Below are positions 13,619-28,594 of a DNA stretch of 62,475 bases, piece after piece. Both the position numbers and the translations under genes were made by a program. The stretch spans positions 1-62,475 of the IMG/VR virus record IMGVR_UViG_3300023184_000124; one strand, written 5' to 3'. Origin of the DNA: a virus. The notes beneath the pieces were generated by a model. It ran no database searches. It saw only the letters and a program-made list of their open reading frames with translations, and was not told where the DNA came from. Position 1 is the stretch's first letter. Every line of letters begins with the position of its first letter.

Positions 13619-14815
13619 TTATTGGAATGTTAAATTTGCAACAGCTATCTCACCAACGTAATCCGCAGCATTACCAAAACTGCTTGCAGTATTAGTAAGC
13701 TCGATATATCCGTAACGAGTCATAAATGATACGACTGGTTCGAATGTTGTTGGATCAAGAACAACACCAGAACTCATCAACGGAATGTAAGGGCAATAGA
13801 ATGCCGCTGCATCTGTTTCTGAAGAACCTTTATAACCAACCAATACAGGTTGTGTATCAGGTGCATAAGAGTCAACAAATACACGCATAGCGCCGTTTAA
13901 GGTACCAACGAACTTTGTATTTGTTGGTGCTTCAAAAGTACCTTCTGTAGTACGAGCGAATGCAGAAGTTGTAGCACTTTGTAGAACCGTTAACGCTGCA
14001 CTAGATACAACAGCCCAGTTACCTGCTCCACGACGGGTGCGTTGAGCGATCAAGTTAGCAACACGATTGATAAGAACTGCCAATGCAGCATGTTCATCAC
14101 CAACATATGTAGCAGTACCAGATACGGTTGCCTGATTGAATGTAAACTCAGTAGTTGCTAAGGTACGTAATGACAATAGAATTTCCTGGTCAATTTCAGC
14201 TGTAATTTCTTGTGCCAAAGCAGCCATAATTTCTGCTTCAACGTCAATGCCATGCTGGCTTTGTGCGTCTTGAGCAGCTTCAAATGTCCAACGTGCTTGC
14301 AATTTACGTGATTTCGCTTCAACAGCTTGACGTAGAATTTGCACACTGATTTGTTTACCGCCATTGCCTTCAAGGGCAGCGGTATTATTTGCAGTATAGC
14401 TGCTAGTTGAACCTGTTGCTTGTGGAGTACGTGAATACGCCTGAGCAATCATGAACGGACTTAATGCTTCTTGACCAGCGGTAACACTAGTTGCTGCTGC
14501 ACTGTTGTCTGTTAAAGACTGAGCATAGCGAACACGCAATGTATGAATCTGACCAACTGGACCTGTCATTGGCTGAACGCCTACCAATTCGTTAGCGATA
14601 ACGGTTGGCATGACACGACGGATAACCGGAAGAATCACACGATTTAATGTAGCGATGTTTCCAGCTGTTGTAGTACCGGCTGAAGATTCAGCAAGTAACT
14701 GTCTTTTTGTGTTTTCTAAAATAACACCCATTGTTGAACGACGGTTGCCTCTTAGACCTTCTAACAGGGCGTCCTTGGTTTCGTTCCAACGGCCTTCTAA
14801 TAATACTTTTGACAT
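13619..14815 (-). CDS. gp23: Major capsid protein (gp23)
   Basis: This is the shell subunit of the head. The pattern after the pro-peptide is typical of gp23: NRVILPVIRRVMPTVIANEL followed by VGVQPMTGPVGQIHTLRVRY, and C-terminal ATFEP-like and RYGY text. A prohead-protease-type site, LLAE before Ser44, is visible, so the mature N-terminus probably starts at residue 44. At 398 residues it is shorter than the 521 of T4 and probably lacks the T4 insertion domain. AGGAGA precedes the ATG. It is last in the operon 20-67-68-21-22-23, and the GroES-like gene at 6544-6909 probably supports its folding. Confidence 0.97.
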   Translation of the reverse strand: MSKVLLEGRWNETKDALLEGLRGNRRSTMGVILENTKRQLLAESSAGTTTAGNIATLNRVILPVIRRVMPTVIANELVGVQPMTGPVGQIHTLRVRYAQSLTDNSAAATSVTAGQEALSPFMIAQAYSRTPQATGSTSSYTANNTAALEGNGGKQISVQILRQAVEAKSRKLQARWTFEAAQDAQSQHGIDVEAEIMAALAQEITAEIDQEILLSLRTLATTEFTFNQATVSGTATYVGDEHAALAVLINRVANLIAQRTRRGAGNWAVVSSAALTVLQSATTSAFARTTEGTFEAPTNTKFVGTLNGAMRVFVDSYAPDTQPVLVGYKGSSETDAAAFYCPYIPLMSSGVVLDPTTFEPVVSFMTRYGYIELTNTASSFGNAADYVGEIAVANLTFQ

Positions 14816-19689: not shown

Positions 19690-22600
19690 TTAACGGGATT
19701 CTCTTAATATTCTTGCTGCTATATCATTGGCTTCTTCAAGTTTATCAATCATCTCATCACATTTATCAGTAAATAAAGATAGAACCTCAAACATCATTTG
19801 TTCTGAATTGTTAGATGCCGTTGCTGCTGCTACTGGGGCTGAAGATGGAGTAATCTTTTTAAGTGCTTCAACAACTACTGGATTTACCGATTCTAAAGTA
19901 ACTTTTGATAGTGTTTCAGACGCTGAAATTGCAGGACGGACCGGTTCTACTTCTGCCGGTGCAAGTGGCATTCTATAATCTGGGCCCTGATTGCCAAGTT
20001 CGCCGGCATTAGGGTCAATAGTTCCAGTCGGCAGCGATGCTTGTATATAAGTAGTTTCAGCATCATTCATCCTTCGATCATTGGGTATATAATCTTCTAT
20101 GCTAAAATTTCCCACATTAGTTTTATTATTACTACTTTTTGCTTCTACTGCAGGGCCAGTATCTTGATCTGCATCTCCAGATTTACCCCTAAGCTTGCTG
20201 GCTGCTACTACTGGGTTTGCTGCTACCGAGGCTGCTGCTACGGGTGCTGTGGTTACTACAGCCGGTGCTGCTGCTACAGGTGCTGCTGCTGCTGTGGTTA
20301 CTACAGCCGGTGCTGTGGTTACTACAGCCGGTGCTGCTGCCACGGGTGCTGCTGCTACGGGTGCTGTTCCAACTTTTCTAAGTAACTCTTTGAAATCAGT
20401 AAACCCCATTGATGTAAATAATTCCTGAGCATTAAATTGAGTATTTTTCCCTAAATTTTTCAATAGGGATGAAAGTTGTTCACTCATTTCACTAGCGAGT
20501 TGTTTACCATCTACCCCATTTTTAAGATCAGATTTTAGTTTTCCTGCATCAATTCCTAAATTAGCGTACCCCTCAGTTGTTTGATCATAACTACCAGTTC
20601 TTGCAACTTTACCAAGAGAGTCTCCCGTTACTTTTCCGTACTTTGCAGACATGTCTGTAAGAAAAGCCACCCTGTTGTCTTGTTCTTTTTGCAATGAGTC
20701 TGCTTCTGCTTTATTTCCCGATGCTCTTAATTCGGATATTTTATCATCTTCTTGCCGTTTGGCAATCAGTTCTTCCAACTCCATAGCCTGTTGCTTTTGC
20801 TCTTCTTGTAATACATCTGCCCCTTTTCCGGTTAATGCTGATAACCGTAATAAATTTTCAGAATATTCTAACGATGCTTTTTTAAGAGTATCAGCATTAA
20901 TTCCTAAATTAGCGGACCCTGCAGTTGTTTGATCATAACTACCGGCTATATATATTTTAGCTTCTTCTTTAGGCAATACTTTTTCGCCGGCATGTAATTG
21001 TGCTACCACATCTTTTGGTTCAACTTCTTTTCCTGTTTCCCCTGTAGTACCATGTGATCTAGTTGCACTAGTATCAGGACCACCCGTAGTGGCAGCCGGG
21101 GCTGCGCCTGAAGCAGCGGGTGCTGATGGAGTGTCCCCTTTCAACCATGCTGCAATTGCATCTCCCCCTATCATATCTATAAGAGAAGCAATAACTTCAA
21201 GTTTACCAACTTTTTTTAGTATTTTAAAAGCAGTTCCAAAGACCGGAACACGTCCGAAAAGTGCTTCTCCAACTGCACCTACAGCAGCGGTCACGGTACC
21301 GGTACCAGCAACGGCGGCGTTGCTAACATTAGGTGCAATATTTGACGGTCTTTCTGCGGCTTTAATTACTGAATCAGGCGCTAAATTTTTTACAAACTTA
21401 AGGAGTTTGTCTTTTGCATCCGTAAAATTTTTTTCAACTAAGGCTGGCCCTTCTACAAATACATTAGCAAGCGCAATAAATCCTTGTTTAGTTAAGTTTA
21501 GACTATTTTCAGTTTCTTTAACATAATTTCTTGCCTCTTGAGCAAAGTCTTTAGCTGCTAACCCTATTCCTTCCTTATTATCATCAAATACTTTTTTTGC
21601 GGCGTCACTTTGTGCTTGATCATTGATACCTATTCTTGTTCCAACTTTTCCAAGTAACTCTTTGAAATCAGTAAACCCCATTGATGTAAATAATTCCTGA
21701 GCATTAAATTGAGCACCTTGACCTAAATTTTTCAACAGTGATTGCATTCCTGATTTAAGTTGTTCACCCATTTCATTAGCGATTTTTGTACCATCTACCC
21801 CATTTTTAAGATCAGATTGTAGTTTTCCTGCATCAATTCCTAGATTAGCAAACCCAGCAGTTGTTTGATCATAACTACCGGTTCTTGCAACTTTACCAAG
21901 AGCCACTGCTGCTGCTTTTCCGTACTTTGCGTCAATATCTTTAATAAATGCTTTCCTGCTTTCTTGTTCCTTTTGCAATGCGGCCGCTTCTTCATTCCTA
22001 TTGGAATTTTTTAATTCGTTTATTTTATCATCTTCTTGACGGGTTGCAATCAGTTCTTCCAACTCCATAGCCTGTTGCTTTTGCTCTTCTTGTAATACAT
22101 CCGCGCTTTTTCCAGTCAAAGCTGATAACCGTAATAAATTTTCAGAATATTCTAACGATGATTTTTTAAGTGTGGCAGCATCTTTTCCTTGACTTACCAT
22201 TGATTTACCTGATGCTGCTTGTATCTCAACATACTTAGCCTGTTGGTCAATTAATTCAGTTTGGCTTACACCCATTCGTTGAAACTCTTGCCGTACCTCT
22301 TTACCAACCTCAGTCATACCCGCAAATGCTTTAATACCGTCAGTAGCATTAGCGCCTAATCCGATTAATCCAGTACCAATTTTTCCTGTTGCATTAGTTA
22401 ATATACCTAAATCTTTAGTAGTTAGACCGGCTTGCTCGCCCATTTTCATTATATCTTTGGTAGTCAATGACCCTGCTGCACCTATTTTAGCAAATTGATC
22501 TGAGGCTTGAAGTAATTCATCAGTTTGTTTAAATATTGCCTGAGAAACCTCAGTAGCTACTTTTCCTAATAGGTTCAATGATTTACTTAAGACGGTCCCC

Positions 22601-22881
22601 GCGGTACCCGTCTTAGTAACTAAAGTACCTATAGCGGTAGTTAACCCTTCTACTGCATAATTATATTTGGAAAAAGTGTGAAGAGAAGTGTTAGATTGAT
22701 CTAAAGCTCTATCAAACTCTTTCACAGTGACTTTAAGATCTTTAAAAAGATCAGTATCCCACCACCGTACGGTTGGAGAGCCAGTGCCCGGAGGGGCCCC
22801 TCCGGGATTGTTTCCGCGTCCCCGCATTTGTTCTTCCGTAAGCTCAATAAGTCTGTCTAGTTTACGGTCCGTTTCACTCAT
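19690..22881 (-). CDS. Tape-measure-like structural protein with internal duplication (1,063 aa)
   Basis: A long, mostly helical protein with an N-terminal coiled region, a central Ala/Gly-rich hydrophobic part (AVGAVGEALFGRVPVFGTAF), the segment VAQLHAGEKVLPKEEAKIY typical of tape-measure proteins, and a helical C-terminus. About 175 residues (SLEYSENLLRLSALTGK onward) occur twice and a third fragment (GSYDQTTAG) precedes the second copy. Between the duplicated part and the C-terminus lies an Ala/Pro/Val/Thr linker. It stands where I would not expect it in T4 (next to gp20), and divergent from gp26 and its frameshift partner. Tape measure is the best guess; another long virion protein is possible. 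CTAAATA at 22924-22930 is its late motif. Confidence 0.7.
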   Translation of the reverse strand: MSETDRKLDRLIELTEEQMRGRGNNPGGAPPGTGSPTVRWWDTDLFKDLKVTVKEFDRALDQSNTSLHTFSKYNYAVEGLTTAIGTLVTKTGTAGTVLSKSLNLLGKVATEVSQAIFKQTDELLQASDQFAKIGAAGSLTTKDIMKMGEQAGLTTKDLGILTNATGKIGTGLIGLGANATDGIKAFAGMTEVGKEVRQEFQRMGVSQTELIDQQAKYVEIQAASGKSMVSQGKDAATLKKSSLEYSENLLRLSALTGKSADVLQEEQKQQAMELEELIATRQEDDKINELKNSNRNEEAAALQKEQESRKAFIKDIDAKYGKAAAVALGKVARTGSYDQTTAGFANLGIDAGKLQSDLKNGVDGTKIANEMGEQLKSGMQSLLKNLGQGAQFNAQELFTSMGFTDFKELLGKVGTRIGINDQAQSDAAKKVFDDNKEGIGLAAKDFAQEARNYVKETENSLNLTKQGFIALANVFVEGPALVEKNFTDAKDKLLKFVKNLAPDSVIKAAERPSNIAPNVSNAAVAGTGTVTAAVGAVGEALFGRVPVFGTAFKILKKVGKLEVIASLIDMIGGDAIAAWLKGDTPSAPAASGAAPAATTGGPDTSATRSHGTTGETGKEVEPKDVVAQLHAGEKVLPKEEAKIYIAGSYDQTTAGSANLGINADTLKKASLEYSENLLRLSALTGKGADVLQEEQKQQAMELEELIAKRQEDDKISELRASGNKAEADSLQKEQDNRVAFLTDMSAKYGKVTGDSLGKVARTGSYDQTTEGYANLGIDAGKLKSDLKNGVDGKQLASEMSEQLSSLLKNLGKNTQFNAQELFTSMGFTDFKELLRKVGTAPVAAAPVAAAPAVVTTAPAVVTTAAAAPVAAAPAVVTTAPVAAASVAANPVVAASKLRGKSGDADQDTGPAVEAKSSNNKTNVGNFSIEDYIPNDRRMNDAETTYIQASLPTGTIDPNAGELGNQGPDYRMPLAPAEVEPVRPAISASETLSKVTLESVNPVVVEALKKITPSSAPVAAATASNNSEQMMFEVLSLFTDKCDEMIDKLEEANDIAARILRESR
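20195..20364 (-). repeat. Low-complexity Ala/Pro/Val/Thr-coding repeat
   Basis: Short direct repeats encode alternating PVAAA and PAVVTTA units. On the plus strand they appear as GGTGCTGCTGC and GTGGTTACTACAGCC blocks repeated several times. This is a likely flexible linker and a slippage-prone sequence. Confidence 0.85.
20365..20886 (-). repeat. Second copy of internal duplication
   Basis: This 522-bp segment matches 21637-22170 closely. Long blocks, such as the one coding QFNAQELFTSMGFTDFKELL, are essentially unchanged in DNA. A further fragment of the unit lies next to it at about 20887-20945. Confidence 0.9.
21637..22170 (-). repeat. First copy of internal duplication
   Basis: This 534-bp segment is the partner of 20365-20886 and comes first in the protein. 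The two copies are about 1.28 kb apart, in direct orientation and in frame. Confidence 0.9.
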
Positions 22882-22968: not shown

Positions 22969-23802
22969 ATGCCACTAAACAATAACCCATTAAAACAATA
23001 TTTTCGTCGGCCATCAATTTATTTAAAATTACCAAGTGGTGGCAAATATCCTCCAAATATACTTAATATGCCAGAATCCGGAGAATTACCGGTATATCCA
23101 ATGACGGCAATTGATGAAATAACATCAAAAACACCAGACGCATTGTATAACGGAACTGCAATGACTGACATTATTAAAAGTTGTATCCCGGATATTATTG
23201 ATCCATGGTTGATTTCTAGTGTTGATTTGGATGCTATACTAATAGCAATAAAGGCTGCATCCGGTGGCAATGACTTAGAAATAGAATCTACATGCCCGGC
23301 TTGTAGCGACTCTAGTAAATATGGAATAAATTTACTTTTATTATTAACTACATTAACCGCAGCAAATTATGAAAATACTATGGAAATTAATGAGTTACAC
23401 ATTAAATTTAAATCATTAACTTATAAAGAACTAAATCAAACTAAGATAAGTCAATTTGAAGTTCAAAGAATTCTTGCAGGGTTAGAGTCAAACACTAACA
23501 CAGACGATACTATCCGAATTGAAAAGACTCAATTGGCAATAAAATCTATAGTTGAACTAACTATACAGTTAATATCAAATTCTATTGAATATATTGAAAC
23601 CCCAAACAGTAAAGTTACTGACAAAGAATTTATTATGGACTATTTAACTAATTGTGATAAGCAATCATACATAGCCATTAGAGATTTTAATACTAAACTA
23701 AAAGCAGAAGCAGAAATTAAACCATTGGCAATTAAATGCATTAAGTGTAGTCATGACTATTCACAACCATTTACATTGAACATAACTGATTTTTTCGCAT
23801 AA
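22969..23802 (+). CDS. gp26: Baseplate hub/assembly protein, gp26-like (277 aa, zero-frame product)
   Basis: The sequence has the features of gp26-like proteins of T4-type phages: a YLKLPSGGKYP start region, GELPVYPMTAIDEITSKTPD, LYNGTAMTDIIKSCIPDI, and a split CX2C pair at Cys109/112 and Cys257/260 that suggests a zinc ribbon. AAGGAAC lies upstream of the ATG. The gene ends GAT TTT TTC GCA TAA, in which T TTT TTC is an in-phase slippery heptamer followed by a hairpin. A -1 shift there would extend the protein by 76 residues to 352. It is the only late gene pair in this part on the plus strand. Confidence 0.85.
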   Translation: MPLNNNPLKQYFRRPSIYLKLPSGGKYPPNILNMPESGELPVYPMTAIDEITSKTPDALYNGTAMTDIIKSCIPDIIDPWLISSVDLDAILIAIKAASGGNDLEIESTCPACSDSSKYGINLLLLLTTLTAANYENTMEINELHIKFKSLTYKELNQTKISQFEVQRILAGLESNTNTDDTIRIEKTQLAIKSIVELTIQLISNSIEYIETPNSKVTDKEFIMDYLTNCDKQSYIAIRDFNTKLKAEAEIKPLAIKCIKCSHDYSQPFTLNITDFFA

Positions 23803-23839
23803 GGCTTCTACACCTTAACACTGAAGGTGTTGAGAAGCT
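23790..23839 (+). promoter_or_regulatory. Programmed -1 frameshift signal (slippery TTTTTTC plus hairpin)
   Basis: The heptamer T TTT TTC (23790-23796) is in phase with the gp26 frame, three bases before its stop. After a 7-base spacer, GCTTCT+ACACCTT pairs with AAGGTGT+AGAAGC (13 bp, a 2-base bulge on the 3' side, 7-base loop; 23804-23838). The -1 frame is open from the heptamer to 24026. Confidence 0.75.
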
Positions 23840-23849
23840 GATAGATAAC

Positions 23850-24026
23850 ATGGAAAAAGAGTGTCTATCCATTAAGAAAAATGCGATTAGTTTGGCATGG
23901 CACATGCGAGGTGGTGTGTCATATGAAGATGTATTAAATATGTCTGCTGACGAACGAACACACATATACGAATTAATAGAGCATAATATGGAAGTAACAA
24001 AAAAGTCTCAACTTCCATATTTCTAA
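23850..24026 (+). CDS. Short downstream frame, probable -1 frameshift extension of gp26 (T-like chaperone domain)
   Basis: The first ATG at 23850 would give 58 residues, but the frame is open upstream to the slippery site at 23790-23796. As a frameshift extension it adds 76 residues. The protein text (LAWHMRGGVSYEDVLNMSAD, then a helix and ending KSQLPYF) resembles a short helical domain found next to gp26 in T4-like phages, and the T part of G/GT tail chaperones in layout. No ribosome site is evident before the ATG, which supports expression by frameshifting. It could still be a separate small protein. Confidence 0.7.
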   Translation: MEKECLSIKKNAISLAWHMRGGVSYEDVLNMSADERTHIYELIEHNMEVTKKSQLPYF

Positions 24027-25125: not shown

Positions 25126-26229
25126 TTAATTTGTTAAAAACCCAACCGCATATTCTTCATTTACTGCCGAGCAATTACATTTTTGTTCACATTCTACCCA
25201 GGCTTTTGATTTATCATCAAAACTATTAAATAAGTGAGACCAAATGTCATCATTTAAAATATCCTCTAACCCTCTTAAATTTAAATTAAGTTTCTCTCTA
25301 AACACTTGGTGAAAACTATCTTTGAATTTTATAGTCTTTCGATCGGTATGTAAAGACACATAAGGATAACTAACCCAACTACACGGATGTATTACTCCGT
25401 CAGCACTGACATATAATCCGCGATTACCAATGGTACACATTGGAGTTACAAATTTAGAATATGTAGTGGCTATGCGTTTAAATAACATTAAATTATGCTC
25501 CATATAATCATCGTTAAGTTGTTTTCTACTTGAAATAGCTTGAAAGTGTCTTTCATATCTATGAGTTTTACTAACAAATTCCGGGTTAGGTTCAAGTAAA
25601 TCTTTTTTTCCACCGTATGCTTCACCATACTTACTTCCAAATTTAGTACTGTATGTTAATTGAACCCCGTCACATCCTATTTGTTTTGCTTGTGCGTATA
25701 TATTATCAAGATAGTCTTGATTAAATGAAAATACAATAGTAGCCCAATATACAAATGCTTTACTTTTCTTACACATGATATCCATACCCTGCATAATAGA
25801 ATCCCAATTACTCCCTACACGATACTTATTATTAGATTCATGATTATAGCCGTCGACACTAAAGTTTATGGTGTCATATTCATTACTAATAGCAGCAAAT
25901 CGTTCCCACCATTCTACTTTTCTAAAACTACCATTTGTAATAGTAAACACATGTATTTTTGAATTACATGTTTTAATGTACTCAATTATCTCTAAATATT
26001 GGCTAGCATATATAGGATCACCTATATCACCGCACATTGTAATACGTTTAACTTGTGTCTTTAATAATTCAGGCGTCAATACTTTTTTAAAGAAGTCTAA
26101 CGTTAATTCTTTGTTCATCCATGGAACAGGAGCCATTTCATTTCTAGGACATCGAGGGCATTTGAGTGTACATTTTCCGCTCACTTCAAAATGCCAATGA
26201 TATAATTGCCATGGATAGTTTAATTTCAT
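25126..26229 (-). CDS. Radical SAM protein with SPASM-like C-terminus
   Basis: The protein has the radical SAM cluster motif CX3CX2C at Cys20, Cys24 and Cys27 (GKCTLKCPRCPR), followed by a TIM-barrel-like region with ITMCGDIGDP, FTITNGSF and NFSVDGYN. The C-terminal part has further cysteines (PMCTIGNRG, HPCSW, CEQKCNC) that may bind a second iron-sulfur cluster as in SPASM proteins. The substrate is unknown; peptide, sugar or nucleoside modification are all possible. It overlaps the SDR gene by 4 bp, so the two are translationally coupled. Length is normal (367 residues) and all cluster residues are present, so it is likely active. It is cargo in a recombination operon. Confidence 0.88.
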   Translation of the reverse strand: MKLNYPWQLYHWHFEVSGKCTLKCPRCPRNEMAPVPWMNKELTLDFFKKVLTPELLKTQVKRITMCGDIGDPIYASQYLEIIEYIKTCNSKIHVFTITNGSFRKVEWWERFAAISNEYDTINFSVDGYNHESNNKYRVGSNWDSIMQGMDIMCKKSKAFVYWATIVFSFNQDYLDNIYAQAKQIGCDGVQLTYSTKFGSKYGEAYGGKKDLLEPNPEFVSKTHRYERHFQAISSRKQLNDDYMEHNLMLFKRIATTYSKFVTPMCTIGNRGLYVSADGVIHPCSWVSYPYVSLHTDRKTIKFKDSFHQVFREKLNLNLRGLEDILNDDIWSHLFNSFDDKSKAWVECEQKCNCSAVNEEYAVGFLTN

Positions 26230-26831
26230 GGTGCAATCTCTATAAATTTAATCATGTCATTAAATAACACTTCTTTAATCTTACTAACAACCTCATCAAC
26301 AGTTAAGTGAGAATTTGAATATATATCATTAAATCGTTCTTCATGCCCTTTATATCTATTAGTATTAAAGTTAGTTTTAGTTAGCCCTAATCTTATTTCT
26401 AATATATTTAGAAAAGGATATTCTACTCTAAGCATATTTGTAAATGATTCTAAAGATTTCTTTGTTAAACTGTATGTAAGATTATTTGGATAGTACTGTA
26501 TGTTATTAGTACTTGTTATATTAACAATTTTACAATTAGCATTAAGTTTTAATGCCTTTTGTGATAACAACACAGGAGCAATTAAGTTAGTATTAATAAT
26601 AGTCATAATCTCATTTGTATTATGTTTTGTAAATTCTATTTTACCCCCAATGTCAGTGCCGGCACAATTGATTAACATATCAATTTTTGGCATATTAAAT
26701 TCAAAAATTGCTGAAGTGTTTGATAAATCTAAATTTTCCCGAGTCAGAGCAATAATATCATTTGATTGAGATAATGATAACTTTAATCTTTCTCCTACTC
26801 CACTGCGTGTGCCCGTTATTAATATTTTCAT
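26226..26831 (-). CDS. Short-chain dehydrogenase/reductase (SDR)
   Basis: The 201-residue protein has the classical SDR layout: the nucleotide-binding TGTRSGVG at residues 6-13, NCAG at 55-58, Ser108, and the catalytic pair Tyr121 and Lys125 (YSLTKK). It should use NAD(P)(H) to oxidise or reduce a small substrate, which cannot be told from sequence. It is a little shorter than most SDRs (about 250). It overlaps both neighbours by 4 bp, gp46 upstream and the radical SAM gene downstream. The two enzymes probably work in one pathway. Confidence 0.88.
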   Translation of the reverse strand: MKILITGTRSGVGERLKLSLSQSNDIIALTRENLDLSNTSAIFEFNMPKIDMLINCAGTDIGGKIEFTKHNTNEIMTIINTNLIAPVLLSQKALKLNANCKIVNITSTNNIQYYPNNLTYSLTKKSLESFTNMLRVEYPFLNILEIRLGLTKTNFNTNRYKGHEERFNDIYSNSHLTVDEVVSKIKEVLFNDMIKFIEIAP

Positions 26832-28594
26832 TCTATGTCTACAGTGTTATGGTAACTTGTGAAGCCGCCTTCTTTTACAACTTTAAGTACACTTGGTACT
26901 CTGCCAGCAAGTTCTTCTCTATGACTAACTAACCATATAGACTTATGCCGGCGGCGACTCATATCTTTAAAAATAGCAATGGCATTTTCTACGCCCATTG
27001 TATCTAATCCGCTATCAATTAATTCATCAACAAACAACGTATTAATGGGTTTGTATAAATTTTCCCACACATCTCTAAAAGCAAAACTTAATCCTAAAAT
27101 TAATCTATTTCGCTCTCCTCTTGATAAATTATCAAAATCAAGTTCTCTTCCCAACTCAGTAATCTCAACTTGTAAATCATTTTTAAAAATAACTTGGTGC
27201 GGTAATCCAATTTTGTCTAAATAATCGGTCAATCTAGCGTTTAAATAACTTAAGTTTTGGTCAATTATCTTTTTACGAACAAAACTATCTTTACTAGTTA
27301 GTAAATCTAATAAAAATTTTTGATGTTCCATAGTTCGTGTCAATTTATTAATAACTTCAAAATCAATGGATTGTAATGCATGACGTTCCATTTCTATAAT
27401 TTGTTCACTGTACGGATCTACCTCATTGGCTTTGTTTTCTAATTGGGTTACAATATTAGCAATCTCACTAGAATGTTTTACTGCTTCTGCTTCTGTATTA
27501 TAATGCGTAATTGGTAACATCCCTAATGTACCTAACTGTTGTAACAACCCTGTATTTTCAATATATTGAGAATTAGTTGCTAATGCTTGTAATGAAGCTT
27601 CTTGTAATGCTTTTTCTTTATCTGCTAATACTTCTTCATGTTTGGTATCATGCAATTCTTGTCCGCATGCATAACAGGTATGATTTTTTAAATCTGCAAT
27701 TTCTTTTTTTAATTTAGTTATTAACTTTAAATCTTTGGCTTCATCGGTTACACACCTAGTAATTAGCTTAGTTAGTTCATCAATGTCTTTTCTTTTTTGA
27801 ATATATTCAATTAAATCTTTATGTGCTTGTAACTCAGCGATAATGTCAATGTTGGTTAACTCTGTATAGGTAAGAGTTAGTTTTGTTAAATCTAAGTTGT
27901 GTTTATCTTGCCAAAGTTTACTTCTACGTTTAGTAGAATCAATTTGTTCTTTAACACGCTTATTGGCTTCTTCTACTGCCTTAACACGGAATTCTTCAGA
28001 TTGAATACTATCTTTACTATCTCTAACCATATTTTTAACAATATCCGCTTTTTCAGAAAGTAAAGTGATGCCAAGTAATTGTTCAATGATATCACGTTGG
28101 TCATTTGTTTTTAATGCTAAAAACGGTTCACTATAGGTATTCAATGCAACAATATGTCTAAACATATCAGCAGACATTTGTATAACTCGTTCTATTGCTA
28201 TTTGAGTTTCTTTGTTTTCTCCTTGAGCATCATCTGTGTTTTTTTGCAAATCATTGTTTATATAAAATCGCAATAGATTGGGTTTTCTTCCACGCTCAAT
28301 TTTATATTCCAAACCATCAACACTAAATTCTAGTGTAACAAGCATGTTTTTACCATTGGTTCGATTAACTAAATTATCTTTGCGAATTGAGTTAATAGGA
28401 ACGCCAAACAATGCGTAAGATAAGCCTTGAATCAATGAAGTTTTACCCGTACCATTACGAGCGCCATCACCACCTAAATCTAGATTTTCACCTAAAATAA
28501 GTGTTAGTTCTTGTCTGTCAAAGTTGACTGCTTGGGTTACTTGTCCGATTGATAAAAAATTACGAAGGGTGATGTTTTTAAGTGTTATTGCCAT
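26828..28594 (-). CDS. gp46: Recombination endonuclease subunit gp46 (SbcC/Rad50-like)
   Basis: This is the ATPase of the gp46/gp47 complex, which resects DNA ends for recombination-dependent replication and helps degrade host DNA. Motifs: an extended Walker A ending NGTGKT at about residue 52, long coiled coils, a zinc hook CYAC at Cys307/310, signature LSRGERNRLILGLSFAF, and Walker B LFVDELIDSGLD. At 588 residues it is close to T4 gp46 (560). It is followed by SDR, radical SAM and resolvase-like genes in the same operon. Confidence 0.97.
   Translation of the reverse strand: MAITLKNITLRNFLSIGQVTQAVNFDRQELTLILGENLDLGGDGARNGTGKTSLIQGLSYALFGVPINSIRKDNLVNRTNGKNMLVTLEFSVDGLEYKIERGRKPNLLRFYINNDLQKNTDDAQGENKETQIAIERVIQMSADMFRHIVALNTYSEPFLALKTNDQRDIIEQLLGITLLSEKADIVKNMVRDSKDSIQSEEFRVKAVEEANKRVKEQIDSTKRRSKLWQDKHNLDLTKLTLTYTELTNIDIIAELQAHKDLIEYIQKRKDIDELTKLITRCVTDEAKDLKLITKLKKEIADLKNHTCYACGQELHDTKHEEVLADKEKALQEASLQALATNSQYIENTGLLQQLGTLGMLPITHYNTEAEAVKHSSEIANIVTQLENKANEVDPYSEQIIEMERHALQSIDFEVINKLTRTMEHQKFLLDLLTSKDSFVRKKIIDQNLSYLNARLTDYLDKIGLPHQVIFKNDLQVEITELGRELDFDNLSRGERNRLILGLSFAFRDVWENLYKPINTLFVDELIDSGLDTMGVENAIAIFKDMSRRRHKSIWLVSHREELAGRVPSVLKVVKEGGFTSYHNTVDIE

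Follow-up and report, generated by a model that had tools for sequence, protein, structure and literature searches.

What happens to the ribosomes that reach the end of the gp26-like gene of this virus? The gene, an open reading frame (ORF) at 22969-23802, ends with the residues D-F-F-A and a stop, encoded as GAT TTT TTC GCA TAA, and an initial annotation, made from the letters alone, read this terminus as a programmed -1 frameshift signal that would join the gene product to a small downstream domain, in a layout resembling the G/GT tail chaperones of phage lambda. The window, that is, the whole stretch of 62,475 nucleotides that was analysed, also encodes a T4-type portal protein (gp20) and the gp23 capsid protein, so this 62 kb contig is part of a T4-type phage; searches against Rfam and for tRNAs gave no matches in the window. 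The features on which the argument turns are the following.

22969-23802, plus strand: short form (TAC-N), a gp26-like protein of 277 amino acids with two Cys-x2-Cys motifs; PF12322 (T4_baseplate), E 2.3e-17, and phrog_150
23790-23796, plus strand: slippery heptamer T_TTT_TTC, in phase with the ORF 22969-23802
23800-23802, plus strand: zero-frame stop codon TAA, three bases past the heptamer
23803-23839, plus strand: candidate stimulatory hairpin of 14 pairs with a 2-nt bulge and a 7-nt loop; minimum free energy -16.5 kcal/mol, z -3.4
23796-24026, plus strand: -1 frame domain (TAC-C), 76 amino acids, with the stop TAA at 24024-24026; predicted fusion (TAC-NC) of 352 amino acids

On profile evidence, the short form is a member of the gp26/gp51 family (PF12322/phrog_150), the match to the phrog_150 baseplate hub profile having an E-value of 8.9e-17. 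The model of its fold (pLDDT 85.6) matched BFVD models of T4-like baseplate hub assembly proteins, with the best E-value of 4e-25, and neither the search by fold nor that by profile found a related solved structure. We consider it very probable, judging from sequence comparison, that the locus encodes a T4-type tail assembly chaperone that would be made as the TAC-N protein and a rarer, frameshifted TAC-NC protein, as in the case of lambda G/GT.

The heptamer is located where the initial annotation had placed it, in phase and three bases upstream of the gp26 stop. By itself, this means little because such heptamers are not rare in the window: in-phase X_XXY_YYZ sequences occur at 0.0089 per codon, and 3 of the 44 ORFs of at least 100 amino acids contain one within the last 15 codons. 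Only the ORF 22969-23802, however, has a long -1 extension, which runs 75 codons past the stop, compared to 22 and 13 codons in the other two. The extension of 22 codons belongs to the gp23 capsid ORF (13619-14815, minus strand), with an in-phase A_AAT_TTA nine bases before the stop, which is probably due to chance. For the signal at the end of the gp26-like gene, a chance origin is excluded by conservation, although the heptamer alone is not unusual.

In the first scan of viral contigs, an in-phase heptamer was present at the same spot in all 22 loci recovered, namely, T_TTT_TTC in 20 loci and A_AAT_TTT in two distant ones, in both of which the spacing and the -1 domain are retained and a new stem is present. 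From two larger scans of viral contigs, 116 distinct loci were read among the best 80 matches of each; the relatives in these scans are not independent samples, and T_TTT_TTC is in phase in 115 of 115 intact ones, with the 3-nt spacing between the heptamer and the stop in 114 of the 115 (again among the best 80 matches per scan). The sole exception among the 116 loci is L203, in which the reading frame is broken. None of the 115 intact relatives, within the same best 80 matches per scan, presents either outcome that the initial annotation had named as speaking against its reading, that is, loss of the heptamer without other change or a free downstream gene with its own ribosome site. Furthermore, the codons at the junction are invariably GAT TTT TTC in the group to which the window belongs, yet, across these genes, GAC accounts for 29% of the aspartate codons and TTC for 34% of the phenylalanine codons; members of the cyanophage group have AGT, GCT or TCT ahead of TTT TTC, whereas other serine codons are freely used elsewhere in the genes. 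Because the junction codons are fixed while the alternatives are used freely elsewhere in these genes, the junction is subject to synonymous constraint beyond the conservation of the protein.

Is the -1 frame past the heptamer translated? The open frame of 76 residues, added after the second phenylalanine of the junction, and the resulting 352-residue fusion are present as originally described. Among 12 distinct close relatives, this frame contains no stops in all 12, the third codon positions are the most variable, and the median pN/pS is 0.375 vs 1.04 and 1.37 in the other two frames. The -1 frame evolves as a protein, continuous with the upstream frame. The model of the -1 domain is helical, with a pLDDT of 84.6.

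The hairpin of the initial annotation, a bulged stem of 13 base pairs beginning 7 bases after the heptamer, was recovered as 13 Watson-Crick pairs and one outer G-U pair, the G-U pair lying 6 nt and the first G-C pair 7 nt from the heptamer; none of 200 shuffled sequences folded as well. As controls for structure, we used codon-resampled sequences that preserve the protein, and we compared these with the first 51 nt past the heptamer in 74 distinct relatives. The mean fold energy of this segment is -14.4 kcal/mol vs -6.8 kcal/mol in the controls, and z is negative against the respective control mean in 74 of the 74 relatives (mean z -2.8); further along the -1 domain of the same relatives, the mean z is just -0.1 to -0.7. 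RNAalifold gave no structure for the 74-row alignment, and we therefore tallied the pairs themselves, in register and after sliding: the basal stem is paired in 94% of the cases in register, a figure that does not exceed 59% at offsets of one to three bases. Two-sided compensatory changes were detected as well, from C-G to U-A in L055 and L084 and from G-C to A-U in L063, and in L121 and L127 the stem is retained with a shifted register. The conserved stem is disrupted in L022, where an alternative pairing is available further downstream. Two distant relatives possess a different stem at the same distance, namely, GGTCACT/AGTGACC in L029 and GGCTCTTTGT/ACAAAGAGCC in Atu_ph07. The structure located at about 5-9 nt past the heptamer is under selection beyond coding. 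The conservation of both heptamer and hairpin in related phages, which the initial annotation had proposed to examine, is apparent, and -1 frameshifting draws support from conservation, selection on the coding frame and selection on the RNA structure.

Could the downstream domain nevertheless be a free small gene that is reached by re-initiation or translational coupling, with the heptamer being incidental? An ATG at 23850 of the window would give a protein of 58 amino acids, and an ATG at or near the stop, with small genes annotated there, is found in several distant relatives (KVP40-type phages, PhiW-14, VAP7 and PBECO4). However, no start codon is conserved in position, the ATG of the window has no Shine-Dalgarno match, and the initial 45 codons of the domain in PA5oct include no ATG, GTG or TTG. 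Moreover, the conserved coding begins at the heptamer, ahead of any ATG, and the heptamer does not vary even where a change would be synonymous. We regard this possibility as very unlikely and, because there is no conserved start codon, reject the free downstream gene in the lineage of the window. Less likely still is that slippage of the RNA polymerase on the six-T run, rather than of the ribosome, yields a fusion mRNA. Nearly every relative does have six consecutive T, which might in principle promote such slippage, but the run ends in C, the X_XXY_YYZ phase is held in every intact case, the hairpin at the distance typical of ribosomal -1 shifts is selected beyond coding, and two relatives carry A_AAT_TTT in the same layout. 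Finally, an error of sequencing or assembly, or decay of a single ORF, for which L203 demonstrates that such errors occur within the collection, can be dismissed, given that the identical break recurs in 115 distinct metagenome loci (among the best 80 matches per scan) and is also present in the finished genomes of several cultured phages.

Programmed ribosomal frameshifting thus stands as the preferred reading, and we infer the occurrence of the shift, as well as its rate, from the signal. Under this scenario, most ribosomes would terminate at 23800 and release the 277-residue TAC-N, the counterpart of lambda gpG, whereas a minority would pause at the hairpin, the two phenylalanine tRNAs re-pairing one base back on T_TTT_TTC, and would then read the -1 frame to produce the 352-residue TAC-NC, the counterpart of gpGT.

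How far does this junction extend among cultured phages? T_TTT_TTC followed by a -1 domain is present in the jumbo phages Atu_ph07, Phosso, PA5oct and PBECO4, in none of which (0 of 4) is it annotated as a fusion, and the junction is shared by the cyanophage S-RIM8, the KVP40-type phage VH1_2019, the Aeromonas phage ZPAH1 and the Delftia phage PhiW-14; in Melnitz, T_TTT_TTT directly abuts the stop. The Ackermannviridae phages 3M (L037) and VAP7 (L042) have a -1 frame domain without T_TTT_TTC, the sequences near the stop being GGTTTTC and GTTTTTC. In S-RIM8 (L036:3232-3369) and Melnitz (L040:3223-3366), genes of 46-48 amino acids annotated as 'gp51, baseplate hub assembly' lie wholly inside the -1 frame of gp26; these 'gp51' proteins probably represent no more than the C-terminal portion of a fusion made by frameshifting, and such misannotation is likely to be widespread. 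An ATG in the -1 frame that overlaps or adjoins the gp26 stop was observed in the KVP40-type phage (L039), PhiW-14 (L038), VAP7 (L042) and PBECO4 (L034), which makes re-initiation conceivable in these four: it could add a free C-terminal domain besides frameshifting in the KVP40-type phage, PhiW-14 and PBECO4, and possibly instead of it in VAP7.

T4 and Octan lack such a junction and encode gp26 and a longer gp51 instead, and the gp26/gp51 gene arrangement of Aes508 and Phi1 is the same as in T4. So what is the relationship between the fusions and these two proteins? Both T4 gp26 and T4 gp51 belong to PF12322 (E 9e-64 and 4e-52, respectively), and the PHROG family spans a C-terminal stretch that is found in gp51 and is absent from gp26. 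The profiles of the cyanophage-type fusion and of T4 gp51 align from end to end, the -1 domain included (E 6e-21); that of the window-type fusion aligns in turn with the cyanophage-type one (E 8e-19). Directly compared, the window-type -1 domain shows a modest match to the C-terminus of gp51 (83% probability, 35 columns, E 8e-6) and no profile match to gp26; taken as a whole, the window-type fusion matches gp51 less well (48%), and only in the N-terminal part. Together, these comparisons argue that the extra C-terminal domain is homologous to the C-terminus of gp51, and they lend support to the frameshift reading and to the likeness to the lambda chaperones that had been proposed for the locus. 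Since the extra C-terminal domain matched by the fusions is present in gp51, T4 appears to rely on two separate genes of the same family, one for the short and one for the long form, with no slip site ending gene 26, whereas in its relatives a single gene with a frameshift serves for both. Vladimirov and colleagues reportedly found, in 2022, that frameshifting is conserved in several groups of T4-like phages and that T4 uses genes 26 and 51.

The heptamer of lambda is GGGAAAG, whereas the window has T_TTT_TTC, separated by three bases from the stop and followed by a hairpin. The likeness to gpG and gpGT is one of layout: an abundant short protein and a product of -1 frameshifting that gains a small C-terminal domain, encoded near tail genes (PMC5009743). 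By analogy with lambda, the role of the short form would be to coat the tape measure protein, and that of the extra domain of the rarer long form to recruit subunits of the tail tube protein (PMC5009743). In a review of T4, gp26 and gp51 are described as chaperones of hub assembly, and such a chaperone mechanism fits the fact that gp51 is required and yet is missing from the final particle (PMC3004832). This connection between a hub assembly factor that is missing from the particle and the role of gpGT is one of the implications of the present findings; another is that short ORFs just past gp26, such as the 46-residue cyanophage 'gp51', could be the -1 part of a fused chaperone.

The initial annotation was aware of no such signal in T4-type gp26, and a review from 2016 held that G-T frameshifting is widespread among long-tailed phages 'except T4' (PMC5009743). 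This no longer holds: short and long TACs, encoded in some of the phages by separate genes, have been reported for T4-like phages (Vladimirov, Gautam & Davidson 2022, Virology 566:9-15, as cited in PMC10885494), and poly-T slip sequences in their TAC-N genes are attributed to the same study (by PMC12846349). To the extent that these citing papers convey its content, the principle of a frameshifted T4-type chaperone was already known, and the present locus resembles the systems described there in the membership in the gp26/gp51 family, the poly-T slip site ending TAC-N and the short and extended products; it differs in coming from an uncultured, jumbo-related lineage and in the strong, conserved stimulatory hairpin. 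In the TACs of Vandenendeviridae and Andersonviridae, too, a -1 shift is conserved at the 3' end of TAC-N, with a GTTTTT motif and in different families (PMC12846349). The conserved hairpin and the jumbo and uncultured lineages may be additions to prior knowledge, and we tentatively suggest, without going so far as to call it probable, a broader picture: one T_TTT_TTC junction kept across most T4-type phages (uncultured freshwater, jumbo, rhizobial, cyanophage and vibriophage), with a co-evolving hairpin in the lineage of the window and a switch to two genes in the T4 group, of which the hairpin and the jumbo and uncultured lineages would be new since 2022. Be that as it may, the locus is a very clean and well-conserved case of programmed frameshifting within the group that the 2016 review considered an exception.

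The neighbouring ORF of 1063 amino acids, which the initial annotation saw as a tape-measure candidate, stays no more and no less than a candidate: it is without a recognisable family, Pfam and PHROG searches having returned no convincing match, and, in a difference from lambda, it is on the opposite strand to the short form. This ORF (19690-22881, minus strand), located between the portal gene and gp26, contains internally repeated segments and Ala/Val/Pro repeats. The equivalent place in PA5oct and PBECO4 is occupied by structural proteins; BLASTP gave one weak match of the 1063-residue protein to the syntenic protein of PA5oct (E 0.003) and no match to that of Phosso. On the other side, between the gp26 region and an ORF at 26828-28594, a radical SAM gene adjoins a short-chain dehydrogenase gene (25126-26831, minus strand).
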